From positions 310,001-374,000 of the forward strand of contig NZ_CP025794.1 in NCBI RefSeq assembly GCF_002906655.1: DNA of 64,000 nucleotides, written 5' to 3'. Under the pieces are notes generated by a model, which was not told the origin of the DNA, did no database searches, and saw only the letters and a program-made list of their open reading frames with translations. The DNA is from Vibrio hyugaensis. Lineage in GTDB: Bacteria; Pseudomonadota; Gammaproteobacteria; Enterobacterales; Vibrionaceae. The position numbers were made by a program, and so were the translations under genes. Each line of letters opens with the position of its first letter. Positions within the stretch are counted from its first letter, which is position 1. Below, piece by piece: positions 2,781 to 64,000 of this stretch.

Positions 2781-2974
2781 TCTTTTACATTGCCTTTTGG
2801 GTGATGGCCGAATCTGTCATTCAAGTAGAGCAATCCACTGACGAAAAGTGCCACAATGGAAACCGTAAAGAGGGCATACATACTTAATACCCAAGCGAAT
2901 GTGGCTGTCAGAAAGGCAATGAAGGAAAACATTCTGCTGAATGACATTACATGACCTAATTTTTTACTTTTCAT
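2768..2974 (-). CDS. Small two-helix membrane protein, function unknown
   Basis: I do not recognise a family. This 68-residue protein has a basic N-terminus (MKSKKLGHVMSFSR), then two hydrophobic stretches at about residues 15-31 and 33-51, and a charged tail with HHPKG and KEKS. That pattern fits a small inner-membrane protein with two closely spaced helices. A GGGAGG ribosome binding site sits 5 bases before the ATG, which supports real translation. It is convergent with gnd and divergent from the DUF1254 gene, so it is monocistronic. No function can be inferred from the neighbours. Confidence 0.7.
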   Translation of the reverse strand: MKSKKLGHVMSFSRMFSFIAFLTATFAWVLSMYALFTVSIVALFVSGLLYLNDRFGHHPKGNVKEKSA

Positions 2975-3245
2975 AACGCCTCCCAGAGCTTAGTGGGTAG
3001 AGCCAGAGTGTTTTCACTCCGCATTTGTATTGTCTCTTTTTTGCTCAGAATATACCCAAAAAGTAGGCTAAATATTTCTCAAAAAAGATTAAATATTGAC
3101 CTGGTAGACAGTTTTTAATAGCCAATTATTGTGAGTTTCATTGCATAGCGTTTTAGACAGCATTTTTGATTCTATTGAGCGTCAAAAATGATTTTTATCT
3201 TTGACTAAAGTAAATGCATCCCAACTGAAAACGCAGGAAACTCTT

Positions 3246-4766
3246 ATGTTAAAGACTCAACTTAAACGTGTCGCATTGATTACTAGCCTATTGGTTTCAT
3301 CATCAGTGATGGCAAGCACAGGCGCTTACAACACTGATATTCCATCAAGCATCATGACACCTGATAAGGTTGAAACCAGCATTGGTACTCTGAATTTCAA
3401 GGATGGCGTGCCAAGTCAACAAACCATGGATACGCTCTACAACAATCTAGATACCATGCGTGCAACAGAAGTGTTTATGAACGCGATTCCTATGGCCTCT
3501 ATGGAAGCGTTGAGAGTCGGGCATGAGAAGATGGGGCTAACCAGTTCAAATCAGGTGATGCTGTTTGATGATCTGATGGATTCAAACCCGCTATTTTTAA
3601 CGGGTAACACAGACACGGTTTACGCATCGGCGTTTCTTGATTTAGAGCGTGATGGTCCAACGGTTGTAGAAATTCCGCCGGGCATGGGGCCAACTACAGT
3701 CAATGATGCCTTCTTCCGTTTTGTGACCGATATGGGCGTTGTAGGTCCAGATAAAGGTCAGGGCGGTAAATACCTCATCTTGCCACCAAACTATGAGGGT
3801 CCAGTACCTGAGGGTTACCATGTTTCGCAATCGACAAGTTATACCAACTGGTTTATTGCGCGTGGCTTCCTGAAAGATGGTAAGACGGATGCCGCGGTGA
3901 ACTCATACCACACAGGTTTGAAGATTTACCCACTGGCGAAGAAGGGTGAACAGCCGAAGATGGAGTTTATCTCTGGTAGTGGTAAGTCTTTCAATACTAT
4001 CCATGCGAACGACGACCATTTCTATGATGAAATCAAAACGGTGATCGACAAAGAGCCGATTGAGTTCATCGACCCAGAAATGCGTGGTTTGATTGCGACT
4101 ATCGGTATTCAGAAGGGCAAACCATTTGCACCGGATGCTCGCATGCAAAAGATCCTTGAAGATGGTGCTGCGATTGGTAATGCAACGGCACGTGCACTGA
4201 TGTTCAACCCACGCACCGAGAATGCATATATTTGGAACGATCGTAACTGGAAGACCGCATTTATTGGCAATGATTATCAGTGGTTAATTGAAGAAGGTAA
4301 CGGTGGACGAAACCTAGATGCACGTACCTATTTCTTCTACATGGCAACGGTTAACACGCCTGCAATGGCATTGAAGATGGTTGGTAAAGGATCGAAATAC
4401 GCGATTGTCGATAAGTCTGCACAAGGCGAGTACTTTGATGGTGGAAAGAATTACAAACTGACGATTCCTGCCAATGTGCCTGCGAAGAACTTCTGGTCTG
4501 TGGTGGCTTACGATACGCAAACACGTTCGGAGCTCCAAACGAGCCAACCGTTCCCAAGTAAGAACGACAAACGTGATGAGATGATTGAGAACTCAGATGG
4601 CTCGATTGACTTGTACTTTGGCCCGAAAGCACCAAAAGGCAAAGAAGCAAACTGGATTCAAACCGTACCCAATAAAGGTTGGTTCACCATCTTGCGAGTA
4701 TATGGTCCACTAGAACCTTGGTACGACGGCACTTGGAAGCCAAGTGATATCACTGAGGTCAAATAA
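3246..4766 (+). CDS. Secreted DUF1254/DUF1214 domain protein
   Basis: A 506-residue exported protein. An upstream in-frame TTG at 3201 exists, but the ATG at 3246 has an AGGAA ribosome binding site and gives a clean signal peptide (MLKTQLKRVALITSLLVSSSVMA), so I chose it. The DUF1254 domain follows the signal peptide, roughly residues 50-180. The DUF1214 domain lies near the C-terminus, with NWIQTVPNKGWFTILR and YGPLEPWYDGTW as its recognisable end. The biochemical function of this periplasmic or outer-membrane-associated family is not established to my knowledge. The gene stands alone, with its own terminator and a divergent or convergent gene on each side. Confidence 0.88.
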   Translation: MLKTQLKRVALITSLLVSSSVMASTGAYNTDIPSSIMTPDKVETSIGTLNFKDGVPSQQTMDTLYNNLDTMRATEVFMNAIPMASMEALRVGHEKMGLTSSNQVMLFDDLMDSNPLFLTGNTDTVYASAFLDLERDGPTVVEIPPGMGPTTVNDAFFRFVTDMGVVGPDKGQGGKYLILPPNYEGPVPEGYHVSQSTSYTNWFIARGFLKDGKTDAAVNSYHTGLKIYPLAKKGEQPKMEFISGSGKSFNTIHANDDHFYDEIKTVIDKEPIEFIDPEMRGLIATIGIQKGKPFAPDARMQKILEDGAAIGNATARALMFNPRTENAYIWNDRNWKTAFIGNDYQWLIEEGNGGRNLDARTYFFYMATVNTPAMALKMVGKGSKYAIVDKSAQGEYFDGGKNYKLTIPANVPAKNFWSVVAYDTQTRSELQTSQPFPSKNDKRDEMIENSDGSIDLYFGPKAPKGKEANWIQTVPNKGWFTILRVYGPLEPWYDGTWKPSDITEVK

Positions 4767-49293: not shown

Positions 49294-49992
49294 ATGAAAA
49301 AAGCAGTCGTTGTTTTCAGTGGTGGACAGGACTCTACAACATGTCTGGTTCAAGCATTAAAAGAGTTTGACGAAGTACATGCCATCACATTCGATTACGG
49401 TCAGCGTCATAAGCTGGAGATTGAAGTGGCTGAGAAAGTTGCAAAAGATCTTGGCGTCGCTGCACACAAAGTGATGGATGTTGGCTTACTGAATGAACTG
49501 GCCATTAGCTCTCTGACGCGTGACGACATTCCAGTTTCTCATGAACTTCAAGAAAACGGTTTGCCGAACTCATTCGTTCCTGGCCGCAACATTTTGTTCC
49601 TAACGCTTGCTGGCATCTACGCTTACCAAATTGGCGCAGAAACCGTCATTACGGGTGTTTGTGAAACAGATTTTAGTGGCTATCCAGATTGTCGTGATGA
49701 TTTTGTGAAAGCGATGAACAGTGCCTTGGTTAAGGGTATGGATCGTCAGTTTGAAATCAAAACTCCGCTAATGTGGTTGAACAAAGCAGAAACGTGGGCA
49801 CTGGCTGATCAATATGATGCGCTGCAACTAGTTCGTGAAAACACGCTAACGTGTTACAACGGCATCATCGGTGATGGTTGTGGTGATTGCCCGTCTTGCG
49901 ACCTGCGCAAAGCGGGCTTAGATGACTATCTGAACAACAAAGACGCCGTTATGCAGTCGTTGATTCAAAAGCAGAAGACGGAAGGTCAATAG
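49294..49992 (+). CDS. queC: 7-cyano-7-deazaguanine synthase
   Basis: A 232-residue ATP-dependent enzyme that turns the carboxylate made by QueE into the nitrile preQ0. The PP-loop is [13 protein letters not shown] near the N-terminus. The C-terminal zinc site is [18 protein letters not shown] precedes the ATG. Its 3' end overlaps the convergent GGDEF gene by 44 bases. Confidence 0.96.
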
Positions 49993-51916
49993 GCTCGTTG
50001 TAAGCATCAATCATAGCGTCGTGCCCACTTTGCTTCGCTTGATATAAAGCTTGGTCTAGTATCGAATACAGCTCATCAAAGTTCGTTAATGGTTTTGATG
50101 TAGACAAATAGGCCAAGCTTGCAGTTACACTCAGTACCTCAGCATTTTCAGTTTTGATCTGCTTATCAGATATCGTTTTGTGAAGGCTCTGAACACGAAA
50201 TGGCACGTCTATCTCATCAACATTCTTCAGAAGTAAAATAAACTCCTCTCCACCTAGTCGACCAAGGTATTCCCCTTTGTTTAACTTTGCTCTAACCGCT
50301 TTACACACATGCTTTAGTACAAGATCGCCAGTAGGATGGCCATAGTGATCGTTGATGGATTTAAAGTTATCAAGGTCAATGAGTGCTAACACATAACGCA
50401 TATCTTCTGGAGCTTTAACGGTTTGTGCCCGTATTCTCTCAATAATCGTACTTCGATTGAGTGAATCAGTCAGACGATCTAATTTTGATTTCATGTATGT
50501 TTTACGTTGAATGAACAATGCGACGAATAACAATGTCAGTAAGCAGAAAAGAACGAAGTTATACGCCCTTTTTTGTTTCGCAAGCTTTTCGACTTCAAGT
50601 AACTTTAGGTTACGCTCATTATTCATTTTCGTTAGTTGCAACTCGTACTCATATTCATTTTTCGTTAAGTCTAGAGCTTCAATGGCTTTGACGTTGTTTG
50701 CATCGCGGTTCGCAAGTTCTAGCGTAGCGTAATCTTGATAGTGGGACAGGGCGGCCAAATAGTTGCCTTGCTCACGATAAGTTTGTGAAAGTAGAAGCTG
50801 TGCCTTGGCTTGCAATGCGGAGTTCGAATTATCTGATGCGAGCTCAAGAGCTGCGACACCATGTTCAAGAGCATTCGCCAACATTTTATTTTTAAAGTAA
50901 GCAAACCCTGCCGCCAAATGACTCTCCGTTTCTAAGCGCTTGTTTTCATACCGTTTACCCAGCTCTAGTGCGTTCTTTATATAGGGTACGGCACTTTCCA
51001 GGTTTCCTGATTCGACATAAGCAGAACCAAGGCCAAGATAGGTCAGACCTCGACCATATGGGTAATCCAACTCTTTTAAAATGGTTAGCGCGTTTTTGTA
51101 GTGACTGATTGCCTTGTCGTAGTCTTTCGATTTGTTATACATAGATGCAAGACTGTGCTCGACTTGAGCAACTTCAAGTGGTGTCGCTTCAAGTTGGCGA
51201 GCCAGCAAAGCTTGAATAAGGTATTGCTCGGCTTGCTCGTACTGTCCAAGTTCGCTCAGCAAGTTACCTACATCATTGTAAACACCTGAAGGATCGCTTT
51301 GAGCCGGCATTTTGCTTAGCAAGCGGCGATAAAGATCTAAAGCAACGTCGTATTCACCACGATAGTCGAAGTTATTAGCAATAACACGTAACGCTAGGTC
51401 ACTAGGGAATCTCTCAGGATGCTCGATCGTTAAATGATTATTCAGAGAAGAGCAGAAAAAGTTCGCTTTGTGATACTGGCCTTGTTGATTCAAGGTGTAG
51501 CATAGCTGATAGTTCATTAGGGCTTTGCTTTCCACATCGTTATATTGTTTTGTGCTTTGTAGTAATGCGGTGAAAAGATTAACGGACTCATCATAGTTAC
51601 CCAGTTTGCGTTCCTTTAGCGCAAGGATGTATTGAGATTCCAACTTAGCAAAACGATTATTTAAAATTTGACTACTGCCAAAGTAGGGTTGATCGATGTT
51701 TGCCATGTATTCATAGATGAGCCCGCTCACATATAGCTTTTCACTGTTGGAACTTGCTGTGTGATAGCGGTCTTGAAGCATACTCAATGCCGATTCGACA
51801 TTTGTTTTAACAGTAGATTGATAGACAGCATGCCATTGAGTGATGCTTTGAGTGTCACTTGCGTTTGCTTGACTGCCTAATAATAGTGACGCAAGCAAAG
51901 AGAGCAGCGTACGCAT
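49949..51916 (-). CDS. Tetratricopeptide-repeat diguanylate cyclase
   Basis: A 655-residue membrane protein. An N-terminal signal peptide ([18 protein letters not shown]) leads to a periplasmic region of TPR-like helical repeats (about residues 30-410, for example [35 protein letters not shown]). A coiled segment and one membrane helix follow (about 452-471, [17 protein letters not shown]), then a GGDEF domain (about 490-635). The active site reads [12 protein letters not shown], the functional GGEEF variant. No RxxD inhibitory site is seen five residues upstream. It should make cyclic-di-GMP in response to a periplasmic signal or partner. It lies close to a LapA-like adhesin system. It runs through the end of queC on the other strand. 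Confidence 0.9.
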
Positions 51917-52110: not shown

Positions 52111-52464
52111 TTAGCTTAGGTATAGCTTAGCTAGATCTTGAGGTTCAAGCTCTTTACCTTCTAGTTGTGCATTCCAGTTAGCACCAACAAGAACGCCATC
52201 TTCAGCAAGAGTTAGAAGCCAATCTTCAACAAAGATATCTAGAGGAATCTCTAGTACTTCGAAATCTGCCCATTCTTCAACGTTGTGTGCTTCTGCGTCT
52301 TCTTTCGCAGACCAAAAAGGCATGACTTCGCTGTTTTCGAATTCAGTTGAATCGCAAGATAACCAACCTTCTTCATTGCGTAGACCCCAAACTAGCTGGT
52401 TTTCTTTTGTTTCAGCAACAAAAAGATCAAGGTTTGCTTGGATATCTGTTGTAAGTTTGCTCAT
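52111..52464 (-). CDS. DUF2750 domain protein
   Basis: A 117-residue acidic cytoplasmic protein. The family pattern FVAETKENQLVWGLRNEEGW and the aromatic- and acid-rich end (WLLTLAEDGVLVGANWN) are recognisable. Function is unknown. Single gene with its own terminator; it lies between the GGDEF gene and the ompA-tolC pair. Confidence 0.85.
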   Translation of the reverse strand: MSKLTTDIQANLDLFVAETKENQLVWGLRNEEGWLSCDSTEFENSEVMPFWSAKEDAEAHNVEEWADFEVLEIPLDIFVEDWLLTLAEDGVLVGANWNAQLEGKELEPQDLAKLYLS

Positions 52465-52575: not shown

Positions 52576-53190
52576 TCAGGTTTTTGGAAGAGTAGTAAAT
52601 ATGGTCCACTCTTTCTTTATCTCGCCTTTATAGCCCACGACATAAGCCGTTACACGTCTGTTAAGTGCATGGCTGACTTCGTCTGTGCCTTCTGTTGCCA
52701 AATTAGTGTCGCCGAAGCCCACGATTCGGACTCGATTGGAATCAACTCCATAACGCAATAGTGCTTCGCGGACATTATTTGCACGTCGTTTTGAAAGGTC
52801 CAAGTTATGGGAAGACCCACCAACTTTACTTGCGTACCCTTGCAGTTCGATCGAGGTTGAAGGGTACTCCTTCAGGAAGTCTGAAAGCTCACGTATTTGA
52901 CGACGGAATACGGGGTTTATCTCGTCTGAATCGTTAGCAAATAGAACTCGTACTTGCATTTTTTCGGATGCTTTGATGTATTCGCCACAACCGTCATTGT
53001 CGATTTCAGATGTTGCTGGGGTGCCTGGGCATAAGTCACGAGCATTAATCACGCCATCATTGTCATCATCTTGCAGGTCTGCAATTTGCTGAGCGTCAGG
53101 AGTTGGCATGTAATCATATTCATCATTGGCTGATACAGAGTTGGCAAAAGCCAGAAAACCCAAGGTAAGCAGAATCTTAGTTAGTTTCAT
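52576..53190 (-). CDS. OmpA-family peptidoglycan-associated protein of the adhesin exporter locus
   Basis: A 204-residue exported protein with signal peptide KLTKILLTLGFLAFANSVSA. A short calcium-binding thrombospondin type 3-like segment (DDDNDGVINARDLCPGTP) comes next. The OmpA C-terminal domain (about residues 75-190) has ELQGYASKVGG and LDLSKRRANNVREAL, the peptidoglycan-binding core. It starts 3 bases after the TolC-like gene. In Shewanella and Pseudomonas LapA-type loci an OmpA-like gene sits beside the TolC-like gene in the same way, so a role in stabilising the exporter or adhesin at the cell surface is likely. Confidence 0.88.
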   Translation of the reverse strand: MKLTKILLTLGFLAFANSVSANDEYDYMPTPDAQQIADLQDDDNDGVINARDLCPGTPATSEIDNDGCGEYIKASEKMQVRVLFANDSDEINPVFRRQIRELSDFLKEYPSTSIELQGYASKVGGSSHNLDLSKRRANNVREALLRYGVDSNRVRIVGFGDTNLATEGTDEVSHALNRRVTAYVVGYKGEIKKEWTIFTTLPKT

Positions 53191-53193
53191 GGT

Positions 53194-54504
53194 TTAGTAC
53201 TCCACCTTTTGATTCCACTCGGTCGGAACGTCAACTCGCAGTGCATTTAGTAGTTGGCCTGTAGCGTTCATCACGCGATATTTGGCGTACTGTTCCGCGT
53301 ATTTAGCATCCAAATAGTCTTTTCGAGCTTCGAACAATTCGTTTTCGGTATTAAGCAAGTCCAGAAGGGTGCGTTTACCGATGCGGTATTGTTTCTCGTA
53401 CGCAATGACGGTTTTAGAAGCTGAATCAACATGGTCGGATAAGAATTCTTTTTGCTGTAATGTGAGGTCGAGTGCACTCCATGAGAGCCTTAATCCTTCT
53501 TCAACGTTTCGATAAGCGCGCTCACGTAAGTCTTTTGCTTTATTGAGTTGGTAAGCAAAACTCTCGGCATTTGCCGCATCACTGCCACCGTTAAAGAGGT
53601 TGTAGCGCATTCTTAGCATTGCTGTCGTTTCATCGCCACGTCCTTCAATACCTCCTGCGTCATCACGCCACGTTTGGGCTGCTTCAACGGATAGAGTCGG
53701 GTAGTAGTTACCTTTTGATTGCTTGTATTGGAACTTTGCAGAATCCACATCAGCAGTTGAGATCTTAATTACTGGATGAGAATCGAATGCCAAATCTACA
53801 GCGTCATCTACCGTATATGGGATAAAATTTTGATCGGCTCGTGGAAAAGTGAGTCCCTGCGGAGTTTGGCCGACTAAACGAGTGAACATTGTGTGGCTAT
53901 CAAACAGGTTGTTTTGCGCAGCTGCTAAATTACCGTGAGCTTTTGCCAGACGAGCTTCAACTTGCGTTAAGTCGGCTGTCGACCCAATACCAGAATCCAC
54001 GCGTTTTTTAATGTCTTGATAGATTTTTTTGTGCACTTTCAAATTATTTTCAGAAAGTGTCAGGATTTCATAAGCCTTCACCGCATCCAAGTACACTTTT
54101 GTGACTTCCAGCGCTTTATCTTGGGCGTCTGCAAGTAGTTGGTAACGCACCGACTCTGCATCAGCAGCCGTTCGATCAATATCGTTTAACGTTGCGGAAC
54201 CATCCCATATGAGCTGGGTAAGAGTTACAGTCGCTTCTTTACGGGTTAAGTCCGTTGATTCTCGGCCCGCCTCAGCAGGATCAATACCTTCGTATCCAAT
54301 ACCGGCATCAAGATCGACAGAGGGAAGATAAGCGCCACTCGAGGCTTCATTCACATACTGCTTACTTACGAATTCATTAAACGCACTTTTAATGTCTGGG
54401 TTTGTTTTAAGCGTATTTTCAACCGCTTGCTCTAGTGTTTGCCCTAAAGCAGGGCTAGCGGCGAGCACACCCAAGCAAAAGGCGTTGGCACGAGTCCACT
54501 TCAC
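53194..54504 (-). CDS. TolC-family outer-membrane exporter (AggA/LapE-like)
   Basis: A 436-residue outer-membrane efflux protein. Signal peptide ends near SPALGQ. The two OEP repeats are visible (about residues 20-210 and 230-420). Motifs include LLADAQDKALEVTKVYLDAV, TLLDLLNTENELFEARKDYLDAKY and a second-repeat YNLFNGG. Length and tail fit the type I secretion family that exports giant adhesins. It is divergent from the adhesin gene at 54908. The matching ABC transporter and membrane fusion protein genes are not in this window and may follow the adhesin. Confidence 0.9.
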   Translation of the reverse strand: MKWTRANAFCLGVLAASPALGQTLEQAVENTLKTNPDIKSAFNEFVSKQYVNEASSGAYLPSVDLDAGIGYEGIDPAEAGRESTDLTRKEATVTLTQLIWDGSATLNDIDRTAADAESVRYQLLADAQDKALEVTKVYLDAVKAYEILTLSENNLKVHKKIYQDIKKRVDSGIGSTADLTQVEARLAKAHGNLAAAQNNLFDSHTMFTRLVGQTPQGLTFPRADQNFIPYTVDDAVDLAFDSHPVIKISTADVDSAKFQYKQSKGNYYPTLSVEAAQTWRDDAGGIEGRGDETTAMLRMRYNLFNGGSDAANAESFAYQLNKAKDLRERAYRNVEEGLRLSWSALDLTLQQKEFLSDHVDSASKTVIAYEKQYRIGKRTLLDLLNTENELFEARKDYLDAKYAEQYAKYRVMNATGQLLNALRVDVPTEWNQKVEY

Positions 54505-54567
54505 TGTGATTCTCCTAGATTGTGTATTGTTTGGGGTGAGAAATCGTTCTTATAAATAGCGACACCC

Positions 54568-54597
54568 CTATGTGCGTCAATAATTTAACGCACATAG
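54568..54597. promoter_or_regulatory. Perfect inverted repeat in the tolC-adhesin divergent region
   Basis: CTATGTGCGT (54568-54577) and ACGCACATAG (54588-54597) are a perfect 10-bp inverted pair with a 10-base AT-rich spacer. It lies 64-93 bases before the tolC-like ATG, where a regulator could act on either promoter. No T tract follows. Elsewhere in the 403-base gap there is a weak promoter-like pair (TTACGT, 17 bases, TATAAC near 54850) and nothing else recognised. Confidence 0.5.
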
Positions 54598-54907
54598 CTA
54601 TTAATAATCAACTATGGAACTAGTTGCTATACTTATTAATGTGTAAGTAAATCTCCAATTACCGTATGGTGACTCATTTGTATTTTGAATAAAGATCATG
54701 TTTCCAGTGTCTTTTTTCGTATGGATGCCTATTAAAAGGTGACGGTAATCGTGATTTATCGCAAAGCACATCCTTCTGAGTAATATGTGACTTAGAAGTT
54801 GTAATTTAGTATTAACGCACTGTTATTACGTGATGTATTCGGGCAATATATAACGAATAAGTATCAATGGTCAAAATGTTGACAGTAATTTTAGGTCAGA
54901 GGTTTAT

Positions 54908-57900
54908 ATGGATCGTACAGCCTTAGTTTCACTTGGCGGGCAATTAGTTGTAATAGGTTTGGATGGGCAATTGAGAACACTTGCCGAAAACGAACAGCCG
55001 TCACCTGGTGAGTTGATTGTTTCTAGAGCTGAAGCTGAGTCAGAAAGGCTTCAGGTATTAGTTGCAAAGCCAGAAGGGGAGCAAGACGTTTCTGACGATG
55101 TTGCTCAAATTATTGACGCTCTTCAAGACGGTCAAGACCCGACGTTATTGGCTGAAGAGTTTGCTCCTGCTGCTGGGCAAAGCAATGGCTCTAGTTTACA
55201 AACCAGTGGTACGGTAGAACGTACTGCGGCTGAGCTGCTAGCGGACACAGATTTTGAAACCACCGGATTGGCTGCGTTAGGCTTCTCTGAAACGCAAAAC
55301 CTGTCTTTAGCTGAGCTCTACCTTAATAATATCCGTCCTGATGTAACCTTACCTGCAGTCACGCCAGTGGCTCCTGTCGCGGAAGACGACAACATTCAAA
55401 CCGACGAAGATGTTCCCGCAACTATTGATGTACTGGCTAATGATACTGACCAGGATAGTGATAGCTTAACGATTGAATCTGCCACCGTGCCTGAAGATCA
55501 AGGTACGGTCGAAGTCGTTGATGGTGAACTCATTTTTACCCCTGCTAAAGATTTTAATGGTGATGCTACGGTCACTTATGTCGTTACGGATGGGGAAATG
55601 ACGGATGAAGCGTCTGTTACGATTACAGTTAACCCTGTCAATGATACTCCAATAGCCGTGGATGACTTTGCGACTACTGATGAAGACACTGCCGTCACCA
55701 TAGACGTTCTTGCGAACGACAGCGATCCAGATGACAACCAACTGACAATTACAAACGCGTCTGTGCCAGCCGAGCAAGGTTCGGTTGAGATCGTAGATGG
55801 TAAGCTTGTGTTTACTCCTGCTGAAAACTTCAATGGTGACGCGACTATCAGTTACACCGTGTCAGACGGTGAGTTAACTGATAATGCGGAGGTTTCGGTA
55901 ACGGTAAATCCAATCAACGATGCGCCCAAAACAGAAAACACCATTGCTGACCAAGTTCTACAAGAAGATTTTGCTGAATACACAATCAACTTAAATGACG
56001 CGTTCAGTGATGTTGATAATGCAGATAGCGATCTGACGTTTAGCGCTTCTGGGAGCAGCAATATCCAAGTGTCGATTGTTGATGGTATCGCGACCATCAC
56101 ACCAACGGCGGATTGGAATGGTTCAGAGGTACTCACGTTTACCGCGAACGATCCGAGTGGTTTAGAAGTCAGCCAGACGGTTGATTTCACAGTTACTGCC
56201 GTTGCAGACATTGTGTCAGATAAAGCTGATATTGTTGAAGATACCGCGACAACATTGAACGTTCTGCAAAATGATGACTTTGAAGGTCAATCACCAGTTG
56301 TCACAGTAGAAGCGGGCAATGAGCCTGCGAATGGCAGTGTGACCGTTAATCAAAACGGCACGATTACTTATACGCCGAATACGGATTACAACGGTCCAGA
56401 TGAGTTTACCTACACAGTTACTTCTGGCGGTGTGACTGAAACCACAACTGTCACGCTAAACGTTACACCTGTTAACGACAAGCCAGTGGTGGAAAACACC
56501 ATTGCTGACCAAGTTCTACCGGAAGATTTTACTGAATACACCATTAACTTAAATGACGCATTTAGCGATGTCGACAACGCAGACAGCGAATTGACGTTTG
56601 CCGTTTCTGGTAACAGCAATATTCAAGTTTCGATTGTTGATGGCATCGCAACCATCACTCCAACAGCTGACTGGAATGGTTCAGAAGAGTTGACGTTTAC
56701 CGCGACAGACCCAAGTGGTGAAACAGTAAGCCAAGTTGTCGACTTCACAGTTATAGCTGTGGCAGATATTGTGTCTGACAGCGCGAATATTGTTGAAGAC
56801 ACACCAACAGTTTTGGATGTGTTGGACAACGATAGCTTTGAAGGTCTATCACCAGTTGTATCAGTCGAGACAGGCAATGGCCCAGCAAATGGCAGTGTGG
56901 TTGTTAACGATGACGGAACAATCACTTACACACCAGACCAAGATTACAACGGTGCTGACGAGTTCACTTACACAGTAACCTCTGGTGGTGTGACTGAAAC
57001 GACAACAGTCACTCTGAACGTAACGCCAGCCAACGACAAGCCAGTGGTGGAAAATACCATTGCAGCCCAAGTTCTACCGGAAGATTTTGCTGAATACACC
57101 ATCAACTTGAATGACGCATTCAGCGATGTTGATAACGCAGACAGCGAGCTGACGTTCAGTGTTTCGGGTAACAGCAATATTCAAGTATCGATTGTCGATG
57201 GTATTGCGACGATTACACCAACAGCAGACTGGAACGGTTCTGAAGAGTTAACGTTTACCGCGACAGATCCTGATGGTGAAAGCGTTAGCCAGACTGTTGA
57301 TTTCACGGTTAACGCCGTTGCCGATATTGTCGTTGACAGTACAGACATCGTTGAAGATACGCCAACCGTTTTGAACGTGTTGGGCAACGACAGCTTCGAA
57401 GGCCAATCACCAGTTGTATCAGTCGAGACAGGCAATGGTCCAGCAAATGGCAGTGTGGTTGTTAACGCTGATGGCACCATTACTTACACGCCTAATCAAG
57501 ATTACAACGGTTTAGACGAGTTCACTTACACTGTCACTTCTGGCGGTGTGACTGAAACCACAACTGTCACGCTAAACGTTACACCTGTTAACGACAAGCC
57601 AGTGGTGGAAAACACCATTGCTGACCAAGTTTTACCAGAAGATTTTGCTGAATACACCATTAACTTGAATGATGCATTTAGCGATGTTGATAACGCAGAC
57701 AGCGAGCTGACGTTTAGCGCTTCTGGTAACAGCAATATCCAAGTTTCGATTGTCGATGGTATCGCAACCATTACACCAACAGCAGACTGGAATGGTTCTG
57801 AAGAGCTAACGTTTACCGCGACAGATCCAGACGGAGAAACAGTAAGCCAGACGGTTGACTTCACGGTTAACGCCGTTGCCGATATCGTTTCGGATAGCGC

Positions 57901-60900
57901 GAATATTGTTGAAGACACACCAACAATTTTGGATGTGTTGGGCAACGACAGCTTTGAAGGTCAATCACCAGTTGTATCAGTCGAATCTGGAAATGGTCCT
58001 GCAAATGGCAGCGTAGTTGTGAATAACGACGGCACGATTACTTACACGCCGAACCAAGATTACAACGGGCCAGATGAGTTCACCTACACGGTAACCTCTG
58101 GCGGTGTCACTGAAACTACAACAGTATCTCTAAACGTAACACCTGTTAACGACAAGCCACTTAACGAAGACTTTGATCATAGCGCTGATGAACTTATTAC
58201 TAACGTAATTTTTGATACCGATGATAAGCCTTTGAACCAAGGTTCAGAAAGCGATCATATTTCTGACGTTGAGGATGACTTAAATGGTGATGATCTTCAG
58301 ATCCGAATAACAGAGCTACCTACATCTGGCACCTTGTATTTCACAGATGAAAATGGCGATCTTCAAGAAATTACGTCGGCCGATGGCTCGTTGTACAACA
58401 AAGACAGCATCTACTATGAAGCGGATAATGTTGGGTTCTTGCTTGGTATTAAAGACAGACCTAATTCTCCAAATGGAGAAGAGTCAACGACGGATTTCTA
58501 CAACTGGGGTTTAAGTGCAGACGGTGGGGAGTCACACAGTCGAACCGAATATCTAGTAAATGGAGCGTCTATTGATATCTCCTCTGATAGTGGTGTGCTA
58601 GCTCAATACAATCGAGAAGTTTCACATATTGGCCATGGTATTGCTGATAACGATGGCCAAGGCATTCAGCGCGGCGAAACCATCAGCATTGATTTGTCTG
58701 AGAACCCTGTCGGCAGCGTGAATCTTGGTCTGGATGGTCTAGGAGGTTTGTTTGAGCACGGCGACAACAATGCTGCTCTTATCACGGTGACATACCTTGA
58801 TGCTAACGGCACAGAGCAAACTCAAGTTATTGAGTTCTTGAAGCCAGAAGGCAACAACATGCTATTCCAGGAGACCAGTATTGGCTTCGGTAAGGATTAC
58901 CCTCTACCTGAAGGGGCGGTAATTACTCAATTAGACTTCTCGACAAAAACATCTGGGAATTGGGAGTTGCGTTATGTAGAGGGCTTCCCACCTGAAGATA
59001 GTTTTGATTACGTTGTAGTTGATTCTGGTAACGCTGAAAGTGACCCTGCAACGGTTACAATTGCCAATCAGGTTCTAGACGGCAACGTGTCGGAAAACGG
59101 TCCGGATCTATCTTTAACAGGGAACACTGTTACAGAAGGAGAAGACGTTACGTTTTCTGTGGTACTGGATGAGGCGACAGAAACGGCGGTTAAGTATCCA
59201 ATAACTACATTGGCTCCAGGCTCATCGGCAGATGACTCGGACGTCAACCTTTCTAATGCAACCTACACGAATGGTGTTGTTTTTGCAGGGGGCTACCTGA
59301 TTGTTCCTGCCGGTGTTAGTAGCTTCGAAATCATTGTGCCGACGATTGATGATCTTGTTGTTGAAAATGACGAGACGATGAAAGTTGAAATCGGTAGCGA
59401 GTCGGGCTCATCAACAATCGTAGACAATGATAGTACGTCACTTTCAGTGAGTAATGCTGGCGACGTGAGTGAAGGTTCTGACGCAGTATTCACGGTGTCG
59501 CTGTCTAACGAAGTTCAAAGTCCTGTTGTCGTCAATCTAAGTCCGAAGACAGATGGCAACTACACCGCTGAAGATGAAGATCTTGGTAACATGACGGTGA
59601 CGTATATTGATGGAGAAGGCCAAGAGCAGACTCTGGATGTTAGTCCAGGTGGAGACGTTACTATTCCTGCCGGAGTTACTGATATCACGGTAACAATAAC
59701 AACGACACAAGACGATGTTTACGAAGGTGCAGAGTCTTTTGGCTTGGTTGTGACTGAATCTGGCGGTATTACCTCAAACGGCGTGGCGAGTGGTGAGGCA
59801 GTGATAAAGGATGATGGCTCAGCTGTCGGTCCAACAACGCCTGATAACGATAAGCCGCTGCTATCTATCAGCGGTGGTGGTGATATTAATGAAGGAGAAG
59901 AAGCAATATTTGTTGTTTCTTTGTCTAATCAAACAGAGTCACCAGTCGTTATCAATTTGGCCACGAGCACGAGTGGCGCATATACAGCAGAAAACTCTGA
60001 CATTAAAGATTTTGTCGTAACCTACAAAGACAGTGAAGGAGAAACGAAATCACTAACCGTTTCAGAAGATGGTAATGTCACTATTCCTGCAGGTATTACT
60101 GCAATCGAAGTATCTGTTCCTACAACTCAGGATGATGTTTACGAAGGCTCTGAGAGCTTTGGTTTAGTCGCGACGGAGTCTGCTGGCATCACTTCAAATG
60201 GTTCTGCCGTTGGTCAAGCGAACATAAAAGATGACGGCTCTGTTGTGGGGCCGACAACACCAGACAACGACAAGCCTACGCTAACCGTAGATGGTGGCGG
60301 GAATGTCGATGAAGGTGAAAATGCAGTCTTTACGGTTTCGTTATCAAGTCAAACTGAAAGTGCTGTTGTTGTTAACCTATCGGTAGAGACGGACGGAAAC
60401 TATTCAGCAGAGGATAATGACCTTGGCGATTTAGTTGTGACTTATGTAGACACTAATGGCCAAACACAATCATTGAATGTTGATGGAAATGGGAATGTAA
60501 CAATACCTGCGGGAATCCAGGATATCACGGTTACTGTGCCGACTAACGAAGATCATATCTACGAGGGCAATGAAACGTTTGGCCTCACTGTGACAGAAAG
60601 TAGTGGGGTGACAACTAATGGTCAAGCGACTGGCCAAGCAACAATTTTAGACGCAGAAAGTGCACCAAAAGTAAGTATTGTCGCCGACCAAGATAGCGTA
60701 AACGAAGGTCAAACCGCGGGCTTTACTGTGAGCTTGGACCAAGTCACTGATGAGAAAGTAACGGTTGAGTTCGAATACTCTGGCACTGCTCAAGATGGCT
60801 CTGACTTTACTGGTGTTGCAAGCATTGAAGTACCGGCAGGCCAGTCTTCTGTTGACCTAGACATCACTACGCTTACTGATGGCACTTACGAAGGTGCAGA

Positions 60901-63900
60901 GTCATTTACTGTCACCATTAAAGATGTGGAAGGTGCAGACGCAACCGCTTCTACAAACAACAGTGCGAGCGTGACTATCAATGACGCTCAGCAAGCACCG
61001 AAAGTCAGCATTGTTGCTGACACAGGCTCTACCTCTGAAGGTGGTGATGCGAACTTTACTGTAAGTATCGACCAGAAAGCGGATGAGGATGTCGTGGTGA
61101 CATTCACGATTGGTGGTGACGTTGATAGTGATGATTACACCGCGCCAAACACTTACACCGTGACTATTCCTGCAGGCCAAACTTCAGTAGCCCTTGATAT
61201 TGAGACGTTGGATGACGGTATCTATGAAGGCGCTGAAGATCTGACAGTGACGCTAACTGAAACGAGTGGTGCAGACTCTTCGTTGAATACGGCTTCTAAA
61301 GAGGCATCTGTTTCTATCGCAGACGCTCAGCACGCGCCGGAGTTTATTTCTGATGGTGATCTTCCTGGTGATGCAGTAAACAATGATATTTATGACTTTG
61401 GCACCGTAAATGAAAACAGTGTTAGTGGCACTGTTGTGGGTACGCTTGTTGCTGAAGATCTAGATAACGATGAACTTACTTACAGCTTTGCTGATGGAAC
61501 AACAACGAACGGTCTATTTAATATCGACCCATCGACGGGTGAGGTTTCACTCAACAAGACTATTGATGATGTTGATTTAGGCGACTATACACTGCAGGTG
61601 AAGGTTGCCGATGGTACGGGTGGCGTAGACACTGCAGAGGTTAATGTTTCACTTGTAAACGTTAATGATGCACCAGAAGCTTCGCCTTCGTCAGTCACCA
61701 CTCTAGAAGATTCCCAAGTTACTCTGGATTGGGCATCATTTGGTGTCACGGATGCTGACTCAGAAACATCGACGCTGTCTGTCCAAATTACATCGCTTCC
61801 TAGCGACGGTGCACTTGAGTACAAAGGTGAGCAAGGAAATTGGCAGGCGGTTCAAACAGACCAAGTACTGAGTAAATCGCAGTTTGATGCCGATGGTGTA
61901 CGTTTCACTCCAGAGGTAAACGCATCAGGCGATGATAGCTTTACTGGTAATGGGGTTGGCAATCAAGAAGGGAGCTATGCACAAATTGGTTTTAAACCAA
62001 CGGATGGGGAAGATAAGGGCCAAGAATCTGTGTTGACGATTGATGTCACTCCAGATGCCGATGCGCCGAATTTAGCGACGGTAACGCCGGGATTGTCATT
62101 GCCTCAACAAGAATTTCATGTGACTTCTTGGAACAACATTTTGGTTGGTTCAGACAATGGGCAAGGAGTAACAGGACAAGTCTTGATTGATACGATCGAT
62201 GCTTTAGATTCAACCAATGGAAGCCAATCGACAATCACAAATGTTCAAGATTCATCATCTTATGCGACATCATCTGATGAAGCCGTATTGGTTACAGCGT
62301 TGGTCTACCTAGAAGCAGGGACTAGTTATGACTTTGTAGGCAGAGCAGATGATAGTTTAGCAATTAAGATTGGTGGAACACTTGTAGATGAAGCTCGCTG
62401 GGGTAATGGTAGCGGCGACATTAAAGGTAGCGAGTTCGTACCTTCTGTTTCAGGCTTCTACCCGATTGAGATCTACCATCATAATCAGAGTGGGCAAGGA
62501 AACTTTAATGTTGATGTGTCGATTAATGGCCAAGCACCTGTCGATTTAAGTAACAGCAATCTGTATGTCGTTAGTGACGAAAACGCACTGGACGCAACGG
62601 ATGTTCGTACCTCGGTTTTACAAGAAGCTGACGGAGTACAATTCTACGAGACTTATCAAGTTAATGAAGGGCCTCAAGATACTGCCATTCCACTATCTGA
62701 AATCCGCGCTAGTTTGAACGATACGGATGGTTCTGAATCACTGAAAGTGACTTTGGAAGGAATACCCGTTGGTGCTGTTCTTACTGATGGTAGCAGCACG
62801 ATTACTGTGGCGACGATTGATGAAGTTCTTGATGTTACTGGCTGGTCTCTGGATTCTCTAGCTATTACGCCACCATTAGGTTCACATGATGATTTCACTA
62901 TAGCTATTAAAGCGACCAGTACTGAAGTTTCAAATGGGGATACTGAAGAATCACATGCAACGATTAATGTGGTTGTCCATGAAAACTTAGCGACAAACAC
63001 TGGCAGTGATGTGGGTGTGACAAATGAAGATAATGCGCTACAGGGTAACGTATTGTTGAATGATACCGATGGCGACAACGTTTTATTAGTCGATCATATT
63101 ACCGTTAACAACACAAACTATGCCGTTGGTGAAACTGTATCATTGGATAGTGGCTCATTAGTGGTAAACCAAGATGGTAGCTACACGTTCGAACCAGTTG
63201 AGCATTGGTCTGGCGATGTTCCTTCTATTACATACACCACCAATACCGGCGCAACAGAGAGCTTAGATATTGATGTTGTCGCAGTAGCAGACGCACCAAA
63301 GGTTAAGATTTCAGTTGGTGATTTTTCCAAGACAGATGCTGTTGATTCGAATCATGGCTTGGCAACTTCAGCAACAAGCAACACAAAAGTACAGAATGCT
63401 TCTATCGCGGGCGCACTAGGTTTGGATGGCGTTGTTCAAGCCGATAACCCTGTAGCAAACGTAATGCTTGGCGACAACAATGACCTAACGGATACCGATA
63501 GTTTATTTGTTGGCACAGACTACAACGATACCTTTTATGGTGGCGGGGGTAATGATGTCTTTGTCGGTGGAGGACAAAACGATTCTTTCTATGGCGATGA
63601 TGCGTCTACTAACACAGAGCACGATGGTACCGATACGGTTTATCTCACTGGTAACTTCAGTGATTACGAGTTTACGTTCAAGAATAACCATGGTGGTGAT
63701 GTTCCATATTGGATCTTCTTGGATAAGCGCTCGATAGATTCGGTGAATGACAACACTGGGCAAGAAGACCGAGGCGATCACCTGTATGAAATCGAACGAG
63801 TTGTTTTTGCTGATAAGGTTGTTGAACTCAATCCTGACGGCACGTACCAAGTACTGCAAGATCGTTTGATTCCAGTCGATATCGATGTTGATTTAGTGGA

Positions 63901-64000
63901 TCGTGATAGTAGCGAAACATTGAGCCAAACGGTTTTGGTTGAAGGTTTACCATCAGGCGTTGAGCTGCATATCAACGGCCAAGTTCTGACACCAGAGGTT
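54908..64000 (+). CDS. Giant LapA-like type I secreted adhesin, 3' end outside window
   Basis: One frame is open from the ATG at 54908 (AGAGG 5 bases upstream) to the window end, over 3,030 codons. Approximate residue order: retention module 1-130 (MDRTALVSLGGQLVVIG) with PAAG at 87-90, a LapG-type cleavage site; two 92-residue tandem-95/cadherin-like repeats (158-340); four 186-residue repeats (340-1083); a unique region (1084-1500); three 140-residue repeats (1509-1918); two Calx-beta-like 111-residue repeats (1919-2140); a cadherin-like module (about 2145-2260); a PA14-like module (about 2440-2560); and an RTX-like segment GTDYNDTFYGGGGNDVFVGG near 2868. The protein is very acidic with many Asp-rich calcium-binding motifs. 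It should thread through the TolC-like pore and stay attached until LapG cuts it. The C-terminal secretion signal is outside the window. Confidence 0.92.
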   Translation, partial: MDRTALVSLGGQLVVIGLDGQLRTLAENEQPSPGELIVSRAEAESERLQVLVAKPEGEQDVSDDVAQIIDALQDGQDPTLLAEEFAPAAGQSNGSSLQTSGTVERTAAELLADTDFETTGLAALGFSETQNLSLAELYLNNIRPDVTLPAVTPVAPVAEDDNIQTDEDVPATIDVLANDTDQDSDSLTIESATVPEDQGTVEVVDGELIFTPAKDFNGDATVTYVVTDGEMTDEASVTITVNPVNDTPIAVDDFATTDEDTAVTIDVLANDSDPDDNQLTITNASVPAEQGSVEIVDGKLVFTPAENFNGDATISYTVSDGELTDNAEVSVTVNPINDAPKTENTIADQVLQEDFAEYTINLNDAFSDVDNADSDLTFSASGSSNIQVSIVDGIATITPTADWNGSEVLTFTANDPSGLEVSQTVDFTVTAVADIVSDKADIVEDTATTLNVLQNDDFEGQSPVVTVEAGNEPANGSVTVNQNGTITYTPNTDYNGPDEFTYTVTSGGVTETTTVTLNVTPVNDKPVVENTIADQVLPEDFTEYTINLNDAFSDVDNADSELTFAVSGNSNIQVSIVDGIATITPTADWNGSEELTFTATDPSGETVSQVVDFTVIAVADIVSDSANIVEDTPTVLDVLDNDSFEGLSPVVSVETGNGPANGSVVVNDDGTITYTPDQDYNGADEFTYTVTSGGVTETTTVTLNVTPANDKPVVENTIAAQVLPEDFAEYTINLNDAFSDVDNADSELTFSVSGNSNIQVSIVDGIATITPTADWNGSEELTFTATDPDGESVSQTVDFTVNAVADIVVDSTDIVEDTPTVLNVLGNDSFEGQSPVVSVETGNGPANGSVVVNADGTITYTPNQDYNGLDEFTYTVTSGGVTETTTVTLNVTPVNDKPVVENTIADQVLPEDFAEYTINLNDAFSDVDNADSELTFSASGNSNIQVSIVDGIATITPTADWNGSEELTFTATDPDGETVSQTVDFTVNAVADIVSDSANIVEDTPTILDVLGNDSFEGQSPVVSVESGNGPANGSVVVNNDGTITYTPNQDYNGPDEFTYTVTSGGVTETTTVSLNVTPVNDKPLNEDFDHSADELITNVIFDTDDKPLNQGSESDHISDVEDDLNGDDLQIRITELPTSGTLYFTDENGDLQEITSADGSLYNKDSIYYEADNVGFLLGIKDRPNSPNGEESTTDFYNWGLSADGGESHSRTEYLVNGASIDISSDSGVLAQYNREVSHIGHGIADNDGQGIQRGETISIDLSENPVGSVNLGLDGLGGLFEHGDNNAALITVTYLDANGTEQTQVIEFLKPEGNNMLFQETSIGFGKDYPLPEGAVITQLDFSTKTSGNWELRYVEGFPPEDSFDYVVVDSGNAESDPATVTIANQVLDGNVSENGPDLSLTGNTVTEGEDVTFSVVLDEATETAVKYPITTLAPGSSADDSDVNLSNATYTNGVVFAGGYLIVPAGVSSFEIIVPTIDDLVVENDETMKVEIGSESGSSTIVDNDSTSLSVSNAGDVSEGSDAVFTVSLSNEVQSPVVVNLSPKTDGNYTAEDEDLGNMTVTYIDGEGQEQTLDVSPGGDVTIPAGVTDITVTITTTQDDVYEGAESFGLVVTESGGITSNGVASGEAVIKDDGSAVGPTTPDNDKPLLSISGGGDINEGEEAIFVVSLSNQTESPVVINLATSTSGAYTAENSDIKDFVVTYKDSEGETKSLTVSEDGNVTIPAGITAIEVSVPTTQDDVYEGSESFGLVATESAGITSNGSAVGQANIKDDGSVVGPTTPDNDKPTLTVDGGGNVDEGENAVFTVSLSSQTESAVVVNLSVETDGNYSAEDNDLGDLVVTYVDTNGQTQSLNVDGNGNVTIPAGIQDITVTVPTNEDHIYEGNETFGLTVTESSGVTTNGQATGQATILDAESAPKVSIVADQDSVNEGQTAGFTVSLDQVTDEKVTVEFEYSGTAQDGSDFTGVASIEVPAGQSSVDLDITTLTDGTYEGAESFTVTIKDVEGADATASTNNSASVTINDAQQAPKVSIVADTGSTSEGGDANFTVSIDQKADEDVVVTFTIGGDVDSDDYTAPNTYTVTIPAGQTSVALDIETLDDGIYEGAEDLTVTLTETSGADSSLNTASKEASVSIADAQHAPEFISDGDLPGDAVNNDIYDFGTVNENSVSGTVVGTLVAEDLDNDELTYSFADGTTTNGLFNIDPSTGEVSLNKTIDDVDLGDYTLQVKVADGTGGVDTAEVNVSLVNVNDAPEASPSSVTTLEDSQVTLDWASFGVTDADSETSTLSVQITSLPSDGALEYKGEQGNWQAVQTDQVLSKSQFDADGVRFTPEVNASGDDSFTGNGVGNQEGSYAQIGFKPTDGEDKGQESVLTIDVTPDADAPNLATVTPGLSLPQQEFHVTSWNNILVGSDNGQGVTGQVLIDTIDALDSTNGSQSTITNVQDSSSYATSSDEAVLVTALVYLEAGTSYDFVGRADDSLAIKIGGTLVDEARWGNGSGDIKGSEFVPSVSGFYPIEIYHHNQSGQGNFNVDVSINGQAPVDLSNSNLYVVSDENALDATDVRTSVLQEADGVQFYETYQVNEGPQDTAIPLSEIRASLNDTDGSESLKVTLEGIPVGAVLTDGSSTITVATIDEVLDVTGWSLDSLAITPPLGSHDDFTIAIKATSTEVSNGDTEESHATINVVVHENLATNTGSDVGVTNEDNALQGNVLLNDTDGDNVLLVDHITVNNTNYAVGETVSLDSGSLVVNQDGSYTFEPVEHWSGDVPSITYTTNTGATESLDIDVVAVADAPKVKISVGDFSKTDAVDSNHGLATSATSNTKVQNASIAGALGLDGVVQADNPVANVMLGDNNDLTDTDSLFVGTDYNDTFYGGGGNDVFVGGGQNDSFYGDDASTNTEHDGTDTVYLTGNFSDYEFTFKNNHGGDVPYWIFLDKRSIDSVNDNTGQEDRGDHLYEIERVVFADKVVELNPDGTYQVLQDRLIPVDIDVDLVDRDSSETLSQTVLVEGLPSGVELHINGQVLTPEV
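55166..55177 (+). other. Candidate LapG cleavage site (PAAG) in the adhesin
   Basis: Codons for Pro87-Ala88-Ala89-Gly90, in the context EEFAPAAGQSNGSS, followed by the retention-module segment SGTVERTAAELLADTDFETTGL. LapG-family periplasmic proteases cut between the two alanines of (T/A/P)AAG at this place in LapA-type adhesins. LapG and LapD are not in the window. Confidence 0.75.
55379..55930 (+). repeat. Two 276-bp tandem-95/cadherin-like coding repeats
   Basis: Units start at 55379 and 55655. Shared protein text includes TIDVLANDxD and FTPAxxFNGDATxxYxVxDGE. They are diverged at the DNA level. Confidence 0.85.
55925..58156 (+). repeat. Four tandem 558-bp coding repeats in the adhesin
   Basis: Unit starts are 55925, 56483, 57041 and 57599, exactly 558 bases (186 codons) apart. 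Each unit holds two subdomains, one with NLNDAFSDVDNADS and TADWNGSE and one with NGTITYTPNxDYNG and VTSGGVTETTTV. Units 2 to 4 are close to identical over long stretches; unit 1 differs more. Exact period and high identity point to recent duplication or gene conversion. Confidence 0.92.
59431..60660 (+). repeat. Three tandem 420-bp coding repeats in the adhesin
   Basis: Units start at 59431, 59851 and 60271 (140 codons each). Shared text: VSLSNQTESPVV, VTIPAGxTxIxV, DDVYEGxESFGL, and a PTTPDNDKP joint between units. The fold resembles Calx-beta. Confidence 0.88.
60662..61327 (+). repeat. Two 333-bp Calx-beta-like coding repeats
   Basis: Units begin APKVSIVAD at 60662 and 60995, 333 bases (111 codons) apart, with shared VPAGQSSVDLDI-type and DGxYEGAE text. 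Calx-beta domains bind calcium. Confidence 0.8.

Follow-up and report, generated by a model that had tools for sequence, protein, structure and literature searches.

Giant adhesins pose the open question of which of their parts select the surface. The last gene of a 64,000-nucleotide stretch of Vibrio hyugaensis DNA (assembly GCF_002906655.1, contig NZ_CP025794.1; "the window" hereafter means this whole stretch, C1:310001-374000 of a two-contig genome of 5.61 Mb) bears on it. The gene, here called ADH1, begins with an ATG at 54908 on the plus strand and is open to the window end (54908..64000, the first 3,031 of 3,618 codons). An original prediction from the letters of the window had proposed a giant LapA-like adhesin frame of more than 3,030 codons with repeat modules, and the complete gene of 3,618 residues confirms it: no early stop follows just past the window, and the frame runs for 1,764 further bases, with C-terminal RTX repeats, to a stop at L002:15762-15764. 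The best explanation as a whole, to which we give a probability of about 0.8, is that ADH1 is a Lap/FrhA-type releasable adhesin secreted by a type I system, with four binding units and an exchanged tip. Its tip, together with an OmpA-TolC gene pair and the next retention module, would be exchanged by recombination among vibrios of the Harveyi clade, which we take to be the clade of the source vibrio, and the shaft would be inherited with the genome. ADH1 itself is of a known adhesin kind; new are a candidate binding domain in its middle and the evidence for tip exchange.

ADH1 is a mosaic gene. We followed identity at fourfold-degenerate sites between the window genome and V. owensii DY05 along the locus. 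The housekeeping neighbours HAD, QueE and QueC stood at 0.90, 0.91 and 0.93, respectively. Identity was 0.40 in a TPR-GGDEF gene (49949..51916, minus strand; domain names by reading), 0.27 in OmpA1, 0.42 in TolC1, 0.42 in the ADH1 N-terminus and 0.40 in residues 143-335. It then rose to 0.89 in residues 1085-1395, 0.88 in the Calx-beta part and 0.84 in residues 2141-2394, and fell again from the PA14 domain to the end of ADH1 (0.41, 0.37, 0.38, 0.49, 0.21, 0.17 and 0.35). Low values continued through OmpA2 (0.36), TolC2 (0.41) and the N-terminus of a second adhesin, ADH2 (0.53), and gave way to 0.76 in the ADH2 middle, 0.89 in its vWFA domain, 0.88 at its end and 0.78 in the gene beyond. We infer that recombination is the cause of this mosaic.

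An ordinary adhesin of an frhA locus, with a divergent tip and cassette produced by faster mutation or selection and no exchange, would fit the observation that the tip amino acids are 80-94% alike between ADH1 and V. owensii outside the vWFA insertion (0.55). However, fourfold-degenerate sites should be barely touched by selection on the protein, and the best single breakpoint from residue 1085 on, near residue 2340, separates 575/638 identical sites before it from 179/473 after it (Fisher p 4e-79, a nominal value in view of the linkage between sites and the choice of the breakpoint), with HAD, QueE and QueC staying at 0.90-0.93. In addition, 13 of 26 V. campbellii-type homologues have no match to PA14, RTX-split and vWFA, though their N-termini are 97-100% identical to those of the other class. 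We consider this explanation improbable. Another alternative is that the shaft moved and not the tip, the ADH1 middle having crossed recently between V. owensii-like species and the tip being a true older divergence; the contrast between middle and tip would be equally sharp whichever of them moved. The synonymous identity of the shaft (0.84-0.89) is near the level of the housekeeping neighbours (0.90-0.93), so that the shaft is the background and the tip the outlier. In V. jasicida, too, the Calx-beta part (0.80) agrees with QueE (0.81) and QueC (0.83), though HAD is at 0.63. An exchanged shaft is thus very unlikely, and we prefer exchange of the tip.

Tip exchange has several points to answer. 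The first divergent block is interrupted by a short gene (52111-52464) at 0.86. The detailed DNA comparison took in three species (V. owensii DY05, V. jasicida and V. diabolicus) and the parts of ADH1 outside residues 336-1084, and the comparison of tips among homologues was made at the protein level on cluster representatives. The V. jasicida pattern is less clean (HAD 0.63, as above), with the tip at 0.21-0.56 and TolC2 and the ADH2 N-terminus at 0.94-0.95. All of this weighs against exchange. V. diabolicus was diverged across most parts. In pairs drawn from eight genomes, TolC1, OmpA1 and TPR-GGDEF were mostly as far apart as HAD, QueE and QueC or farther, with a strong contrast for the closer pairs only and a retention module that was not always distinct. 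The TPR-GGDEF protein could be a local source of cyclic di-GMP (c-di-GMP) that moves with the cassette. QueC overlaps the end of the TPR-GGDEF gene, yet stands at 0.93.

Tip classes were counted in the best 120 of 2,162 homologues, which the middle domain of ADH1 had served to find and rank. PA14, RTX-split and vWFA were all found in 35 (25 complete), RTX-split and vWFA without PA14 in 65 (30 complete), and none of the three in 20 (14 complete), where incomplete rows may merely be cut short. Of the 65 PA14-less rows, 52 (V. parahaemolyticus-type) have a vWFA domain that reaches only about 50% identity with its ADH1 counterpart. Rows P0038-P0063, all 26 of which were used (mostly labelled V. 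campbellii, with P0043 and P0057 as Vibrio sp.; labels as deposited), fall 13 in the second class and 13 in the third. Between these two classes the N-termini, available in 10 and 11 rows, are 97.1-100% identical (110 pairs) and residues 1085-1395 are 97.8-100% identical (169 pairs). Across the last 1,000 residues, the three pairs examined all share one clear segment, the last 175 residues (77-79%), and one of the three has an additional weak match (26%). In the second class, as seen in the P0042 tail, the region around ADH1 residue 2390 joins that around 2797 directly, and a unit of ~400 residues is missing. The third class has an Ig-like (immunoglobulin-like) half 43% identical to ADH1 2586-2690, preceded in the place of PA14 by a different domain, probably of beta type.

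The insertion in the vWFA domain (residues 3251-3345) varies on a smaller scale. In 30 rows it is 45-60% identical to that of ADH1 (first half of vWFA 73-86%, last part 88-94%) and in 18 rows 80-100% (87-100% and 88-100%), with none between the two groups; the other 52 rows, with diverged vWFA, gave no match to it. Both groups include rows with the label V. owensii, P0011 and P0036 being in the high one. In the compared domains, rows P0015, P0026 and P0028 match ADH1 at 97-100% identity, bar one P0015 domain at 88%, and are probably of the same species as the window genome.

These results suggest a wider reading, for which we see about even odds: a conserved shaft with a constant carbohydrate module and a LapG switch would carry a recognition tip that is exchanged as a recombining cassette along with the neighbouring OmpA-TolC pair and the retention module that follows, giving a polymorphic system for choosing surfaces or hosts. 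Exchange would then act at three scales, namely different whole tips on the same shaft, presence or absence of the ~400-residue PA14 unit, and the two allele groups of the vWFA insertion. The parts that vary are those that would be expected to vary if they do the recognising. If true, the system would be comparable in logic to phage tail fibres, and natural tip alleles on a near-identical protein would make the parts that vary on a constant rest the best candidates for recognition sites. Strain-level DNA is needed before the term polymorphic recognition system is used. Our literature search, whose coverage mostly excluded subscription journals, found no report of tip exchange in these adhesins, and the words "recombination" and "swap" do not occur in the accessible part of PMC12077191, on AhLap, whose authors state there that any effect of the vWFA insertion on the specificity of binding is not known.

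Release of ADH1 would depend on its N-terminus and on the lap genes. A retention-module-like domain (54908..55333, residues 1-142, plus strand) shares 51% identity with the ADH2 N-terminus and 37-90% with the 23 other alignment rows; three frames with this type of N-terminus turned up in searches of the genome. The domain holds the sole PAAG of the protein (55166..55177, residues 87-90, plus strand), a predicted LapG cleavage site at Ala88-Ala89, exactly where the original prediction had put it. LapG and LapD, whose presence in the genome was to be checked, are both encoded there: lapC, lapG, lapD and lapB lie adjacent in this order on one strand of the other contig, at C2:179,618-185,861 (L015:9618-15861), and this contig would be chromosome II. 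LapB/LapC genes directly behind ADH1, where they were to be looked for, are rejected; a second ompA-tolC/adhesin cassette follows ADH1 instead. LapG matched Peptidase_C93 above the cut-off and the solved LapG 4u65 at 6.1e-45, and its alignment to solved structures covers the Cys, His and Asp regions, presumably the residues with known roles in LapG. LapD gave a domain match of 1.2e-42, and neither frame has internal stops. LapB scored 969.5 bits against a cut-off of 693.1 (LssB model) and was the sole one of 79 matches above it; LapC matched an HlyD-type family.

It could be argued that ADH1 is not releasable, its N-terminal variant holding it permanently or letting it be shed at once as a matrix protein, with PAAG as a relic. 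The NCBIfam model retention_LapA matched the N-terminus at model positions 76-144 only (35.4 bits, cut-off 50), and the structure model of the module is poor (mean pLDDT, the predicted local distance difference test, of 56.7); both tell against a classical retention module. Residues 85-118, which hold PAAG, were modelled with pLDDT <50. A Pfam scan of residues 1-142 returned zero families, and PDB matches to the module look like chance (best E 0.22). Conservation points the other way: across 30 Vibrio N-termini Ala89 is invariant, Ala88 and Gly90 are kept in at least 90%, and Ser95, Ser96 and Arg105 are invariant. Row L100 of the N-terminus alignment lacks the PAAG motif. The LapG and LapD frames are stop-free, as noted above, and V. 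cholerae LapG cuts the PAAG of FrhA in a Ca-dependent manner (PMC6890996, in the part available); by analogy the PAAG of ADH1 would be cleaved likewise. A non-releasable ADH1 is hardly probable. The ADH1 N-terminus belongs to a clear family of Vibrio N-termini, judged from sequence, which may or may not fall within the strict LapA retention family.

For the releasable adhesin, the following course is consistent with these data. LapB-LapC from the other contig and the adjoining TolC-like channel would serve ADH1 and export it, C-terminus first. The N-terminal module would fold in the periplasm and plug the channel, so that ADH1 would stay attached outside the cell, hanging as a long shaft stiffened by Ca. 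When c-di-GMP is low, LapD would free LapG, which would cut at Ala88-Ala89 and release ADH1. Binding would probably be shared by four units with putative ligands: the carbohydrate-module-like domain in the middle, PA14, the RTX in a split domain and the vWFA domain with its insertion.

The first of these units had been overlooked in the original prediction, whose retention-like, repeat, PA14 and RTX modules were recovered. It is a split Ig-like domain with a carbohydrate-module-like insert (58160..59092, residues 1085-1395, plus strand; insert ~58427-58996, residues 1174-1363) and is a candidate proximal ligand-binding unit. Its best structural match, 9q5u, is a putative carbohydrate-binding module with a split domain from Aeromonas salmonicida; this match came from a second look at the Foldseek result list, and other folds are possible. 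The 6% identity of the match, a Pfam scan with zero matches and a Foldseek list with nothing convincing (best E 9.8e-4, a flagellar sheath protein) weigh against a binding domain. The PDB sequence search matched no solved binder, and a profile search of the PDB with the middle-domain alignment gave zero matches. The domain might then be a mere spacer, which its position between extender blocks, away from the tip, would also suit. Its place inside a split Ig-like frame, like the putative module of 9q5u, and its conservation at 82-100% in 120/120 homologues (a set selected by the domain itself) speak for a binder, as does its position beside the C-terminus of short adhesins without matches to PA14 or vWFA queries. 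We think a mere spacer rather unlikely, and a fourth, carbohydrate-module-like ligand-binding unit of ADH1 likely.

The domain lies 125-142 residues before the end in 11 of the 12 frames that hold it and are closed at both ends. A distant copy (L031:5681-6499, 29%) was retained in the middle-domain alignment. Some Lap-type frames are only 829-958 codons long, counted stop to stop (L094, L096, L083, L089 and L076), and consist of a retention-type N-terminus, the middle domain and a short C-terminus; these may represent a minimal adhesin.

The PA14-type domain (62090..62587, residues 2395-2560, plus strand; limits by reading) stands before the RTX part, which begins at residue 2851, in the order that had been proposed. 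The assignment to PA14 stood in part. A phmmer search with the piece matched the PA14 domain of MhLap (6m8m, E 1.6e-7) and that of MpIBP (6x7j, E 0.0025), whereas the Pfam PA14 model failed to match, with no family found at E up to 0.1. This failure counts against the assignment, which for that reason rests on the PDB sequence matches. Residues were mapped from the printed alignment: Asp2481-Asp2482 (62348-62353) correspond to Asp136-Asp137, the D-cis-D pair of MhPA14, and Gln2527 to Gln182, residues that contact calcium or sugar there, and Asp181 is replaced by Asn2526. The domain is a probable Ca-dependent sugar binder. It is followed by an Ig-like region that includes a Big_11 family match (62588..63457, residues 2561-2850, plus strand) and in which the other half of the split domain of PA14 probably lies.

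Next comes the RTX-in-split-domain unit (from 63458, residues 2851-3115, plus strand, continuing past the window), which is like 9CSE of AhLap (9cse_A matches residues 2860-3123, E 2.1e-12). The vWFA domain with insertion (residues 3125-3395, plus strand, outside the window) is matched by 9das_A over residues 3122-3391 (E 4.4e-27), with GGxGxD motifs on both sides. In AhLap, 9CSE and 9DAS are ligand-binding units with a lectin-like module before both (PMC12077191, accessible part). The protein ends with RTX repeats and the C-terminus (residues 3396-3618, plus strand, outside the window; HemolysinCabind 4.7e-13, Peptidase_M10_C 1.1e-7), where a type I secretion signal would lie. GGxGxD occurs once inside the window (residue 2878) and three times beyond.

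We compared ADH1 with known adhesins. FrhA of V. cholerae (VC1620, with VC1621) is likewise a large PAAG adhesin beside a LapE/TolC-like gene, with lapG, lapD, lapB and lapC on chromosome II (PMC6890996, accessible part), and likewise has a sugar-binding domain with a split domain (PMC10865825, accessible part). Unlike FrhA, to which it was likened by layout and not by alignment, ADH1 has a cassette doubled in tandem and a tip with AhLap-like RTX-split and vWFA units. AhLap of Aeromonas hydrophila (5,047 aa) shows the same tip order of lectin-like module, RTX roll in a split domain (9CSE) and vWFA with an insertion emerging from the C-terminal RTX (9DAS); ADH1 differs in its extra carbohydrate-module-like split unit midway. 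LapA of Pseudomonas fluorescens shares LapG/LapD control and type I secretion. Its genes stand close together (PMC6890996, accessible part), unlike ADH1 and the lap genes, and the ADH1 N-terminus lies below the retention_LapA cut-off, whereas a third giant in the genome, at C2:854397, is above it with 163 bits. MpIBP of Marinomonas primoryensis has the same PA14 domain type (6x7j, as above); its ice-binding domain was not among the listed matches of ADH1 2851-3618, the two not having been compared directly. The suggested resemblance to ice- and diatom-binding RTX adhesins holds for the PA14 type common to MpIBP, but ADH1 is closer to FrhA in layout and to AhLap in its tip.

The shaft is built of repeats. 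In the window part of ADH1 we found tandem-95 (12 stretches) and Big_9 (11) families, as well as Calx-beta, cadherin, LapA domain, Big_11 and one RTX nonapeptide match. Tandem-95/Big_9 extender repeats, placed by family matches, occupy 55385..58159 (about residues 160-1084, plus strand; outer limits by reading) and include four units of ~186 residues with 83-94% protein identity and 78-86% DNA identity. Recent homogenisation of these units was rejected: 154-174 of 185-186 residues are identical, yet 434-480 of 555-558 bases. Tandem Repeats Finder reported zero arrays in 54000-64000. After the middle domain come Calx-beta/LapA-domain extender repeats (59105..61327, residues 1400-2140, plus strand; three Calx-beta and two LapA-domain stretches, outer ends placed by reading) and a cadherin domain placed by its family match (61403..61651, residues 2166-2248, plus strand). 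Pfam matches to EspA_EspE, RNase_PH_C and CLP1_N were taken as chance matches to repeats. The protein has zero cysteine and 18% acidic against 2.7% basic residues; a lack of cysteine and an acidic excess are usual in such adhesins. P0015, P0026 and P0028, near-identical to ADH1, are 4,404, 4,215 and 3,770 residues long against its 3,618; close strains may have different numbers of extender repeats, or the assemblies may collapse repeats.

AGAGG at 54898-54902, five bases 5' of the ADH1 ATG, is a plausible ribosome-binding site. A sigma-54-like site in 54505-54907 was tried and rejected: the pattern with <=2 mismatches had 49 matches in the window against 41.1 expected, none of them in that stretch. 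Divergent from ADH1 lies TolC1, a TolC/LapE-like outer membrane channel gene (53194..54504, minus strand; OEP family 1.4e-58). The nearest relatives among its listed matches belong to Vibrio jasicida (98%) and V. owensii (94%), from which the source is taken to be a Harveyi-clade vibrio. OmpA1 (52576..53190, minus strand; OmpA-like by reading, without a family scan) is just downstream of TolC1. Directly after ADH1 the arrangement is repeated, with OmpA2 (L002:15843-16466, minus strand), TolC2 (L002:16468-17826, minus strand, 83% identical to TolC1) and ADH2, a second adhesin (L002:18160 to L003:4684; 2,174 aa) that also has a PAAG, at residues 94-97. ADH1 and ADH2 are 51% identical in the N-terminus, about 30% in the Calx-type repeats and, more weakly, 24% in the C-terminal part. 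The Calx-type repeats of ADH2 include six DDDRP linkers (by reading); ADH2 further has a middle domain and a vWFA-like domain, and no GGxGxD motif was found in it. As each adhesin of the tandem cassette comes with a channel gene, it may also be asked whether every retention module requires a TolC of its own.

Elsewhere in the genome, the third LapA-type giant mentioned above has 6,222 codons (C2:854397-873032, L022 ~6397 to L023:5032) and is preceded by an iron-siderophore-type ATP-binding cassette uptake gene set (by reading). Reading of the open reading frames of >=180 aa from ~6 kb before it to ~5 kb after it showed no TolC-like one. Adjoining the lap genes is a protein of 2,502 residues that is YD-repeat/RHS-like by reading (L015:324-7832).

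Among 80 Vibrio loci found with TolC1, of which L025/L033 and L027/L032 overlap and many stop at contig ends, an OmpA homologue follows TolC in 80/80 and a divergent retention-type N-terminus lies <=1.5 kb from TolC in 69/80. The end of another adhesin follows OmpA in 4/80 (V. rotiferianus, V. diabolicus, V. owensii and V. jasicida). In a whole-genome search of 41 genomes, TolC was matched in 33, and two of them (G000 and G003) have whole copies <=15 kb apart; the two pieces of one tolC gene in G014 were left out of this count. In Vibrio sp. AND4, no match to a retention-type N-terminus was found in the locus (L029). Two TolC-OmpA pairs stand there in line (L029:7891-11926), leaving no space between them for an adhesin, and the locus looks as if the ADH1 gene had been lost.

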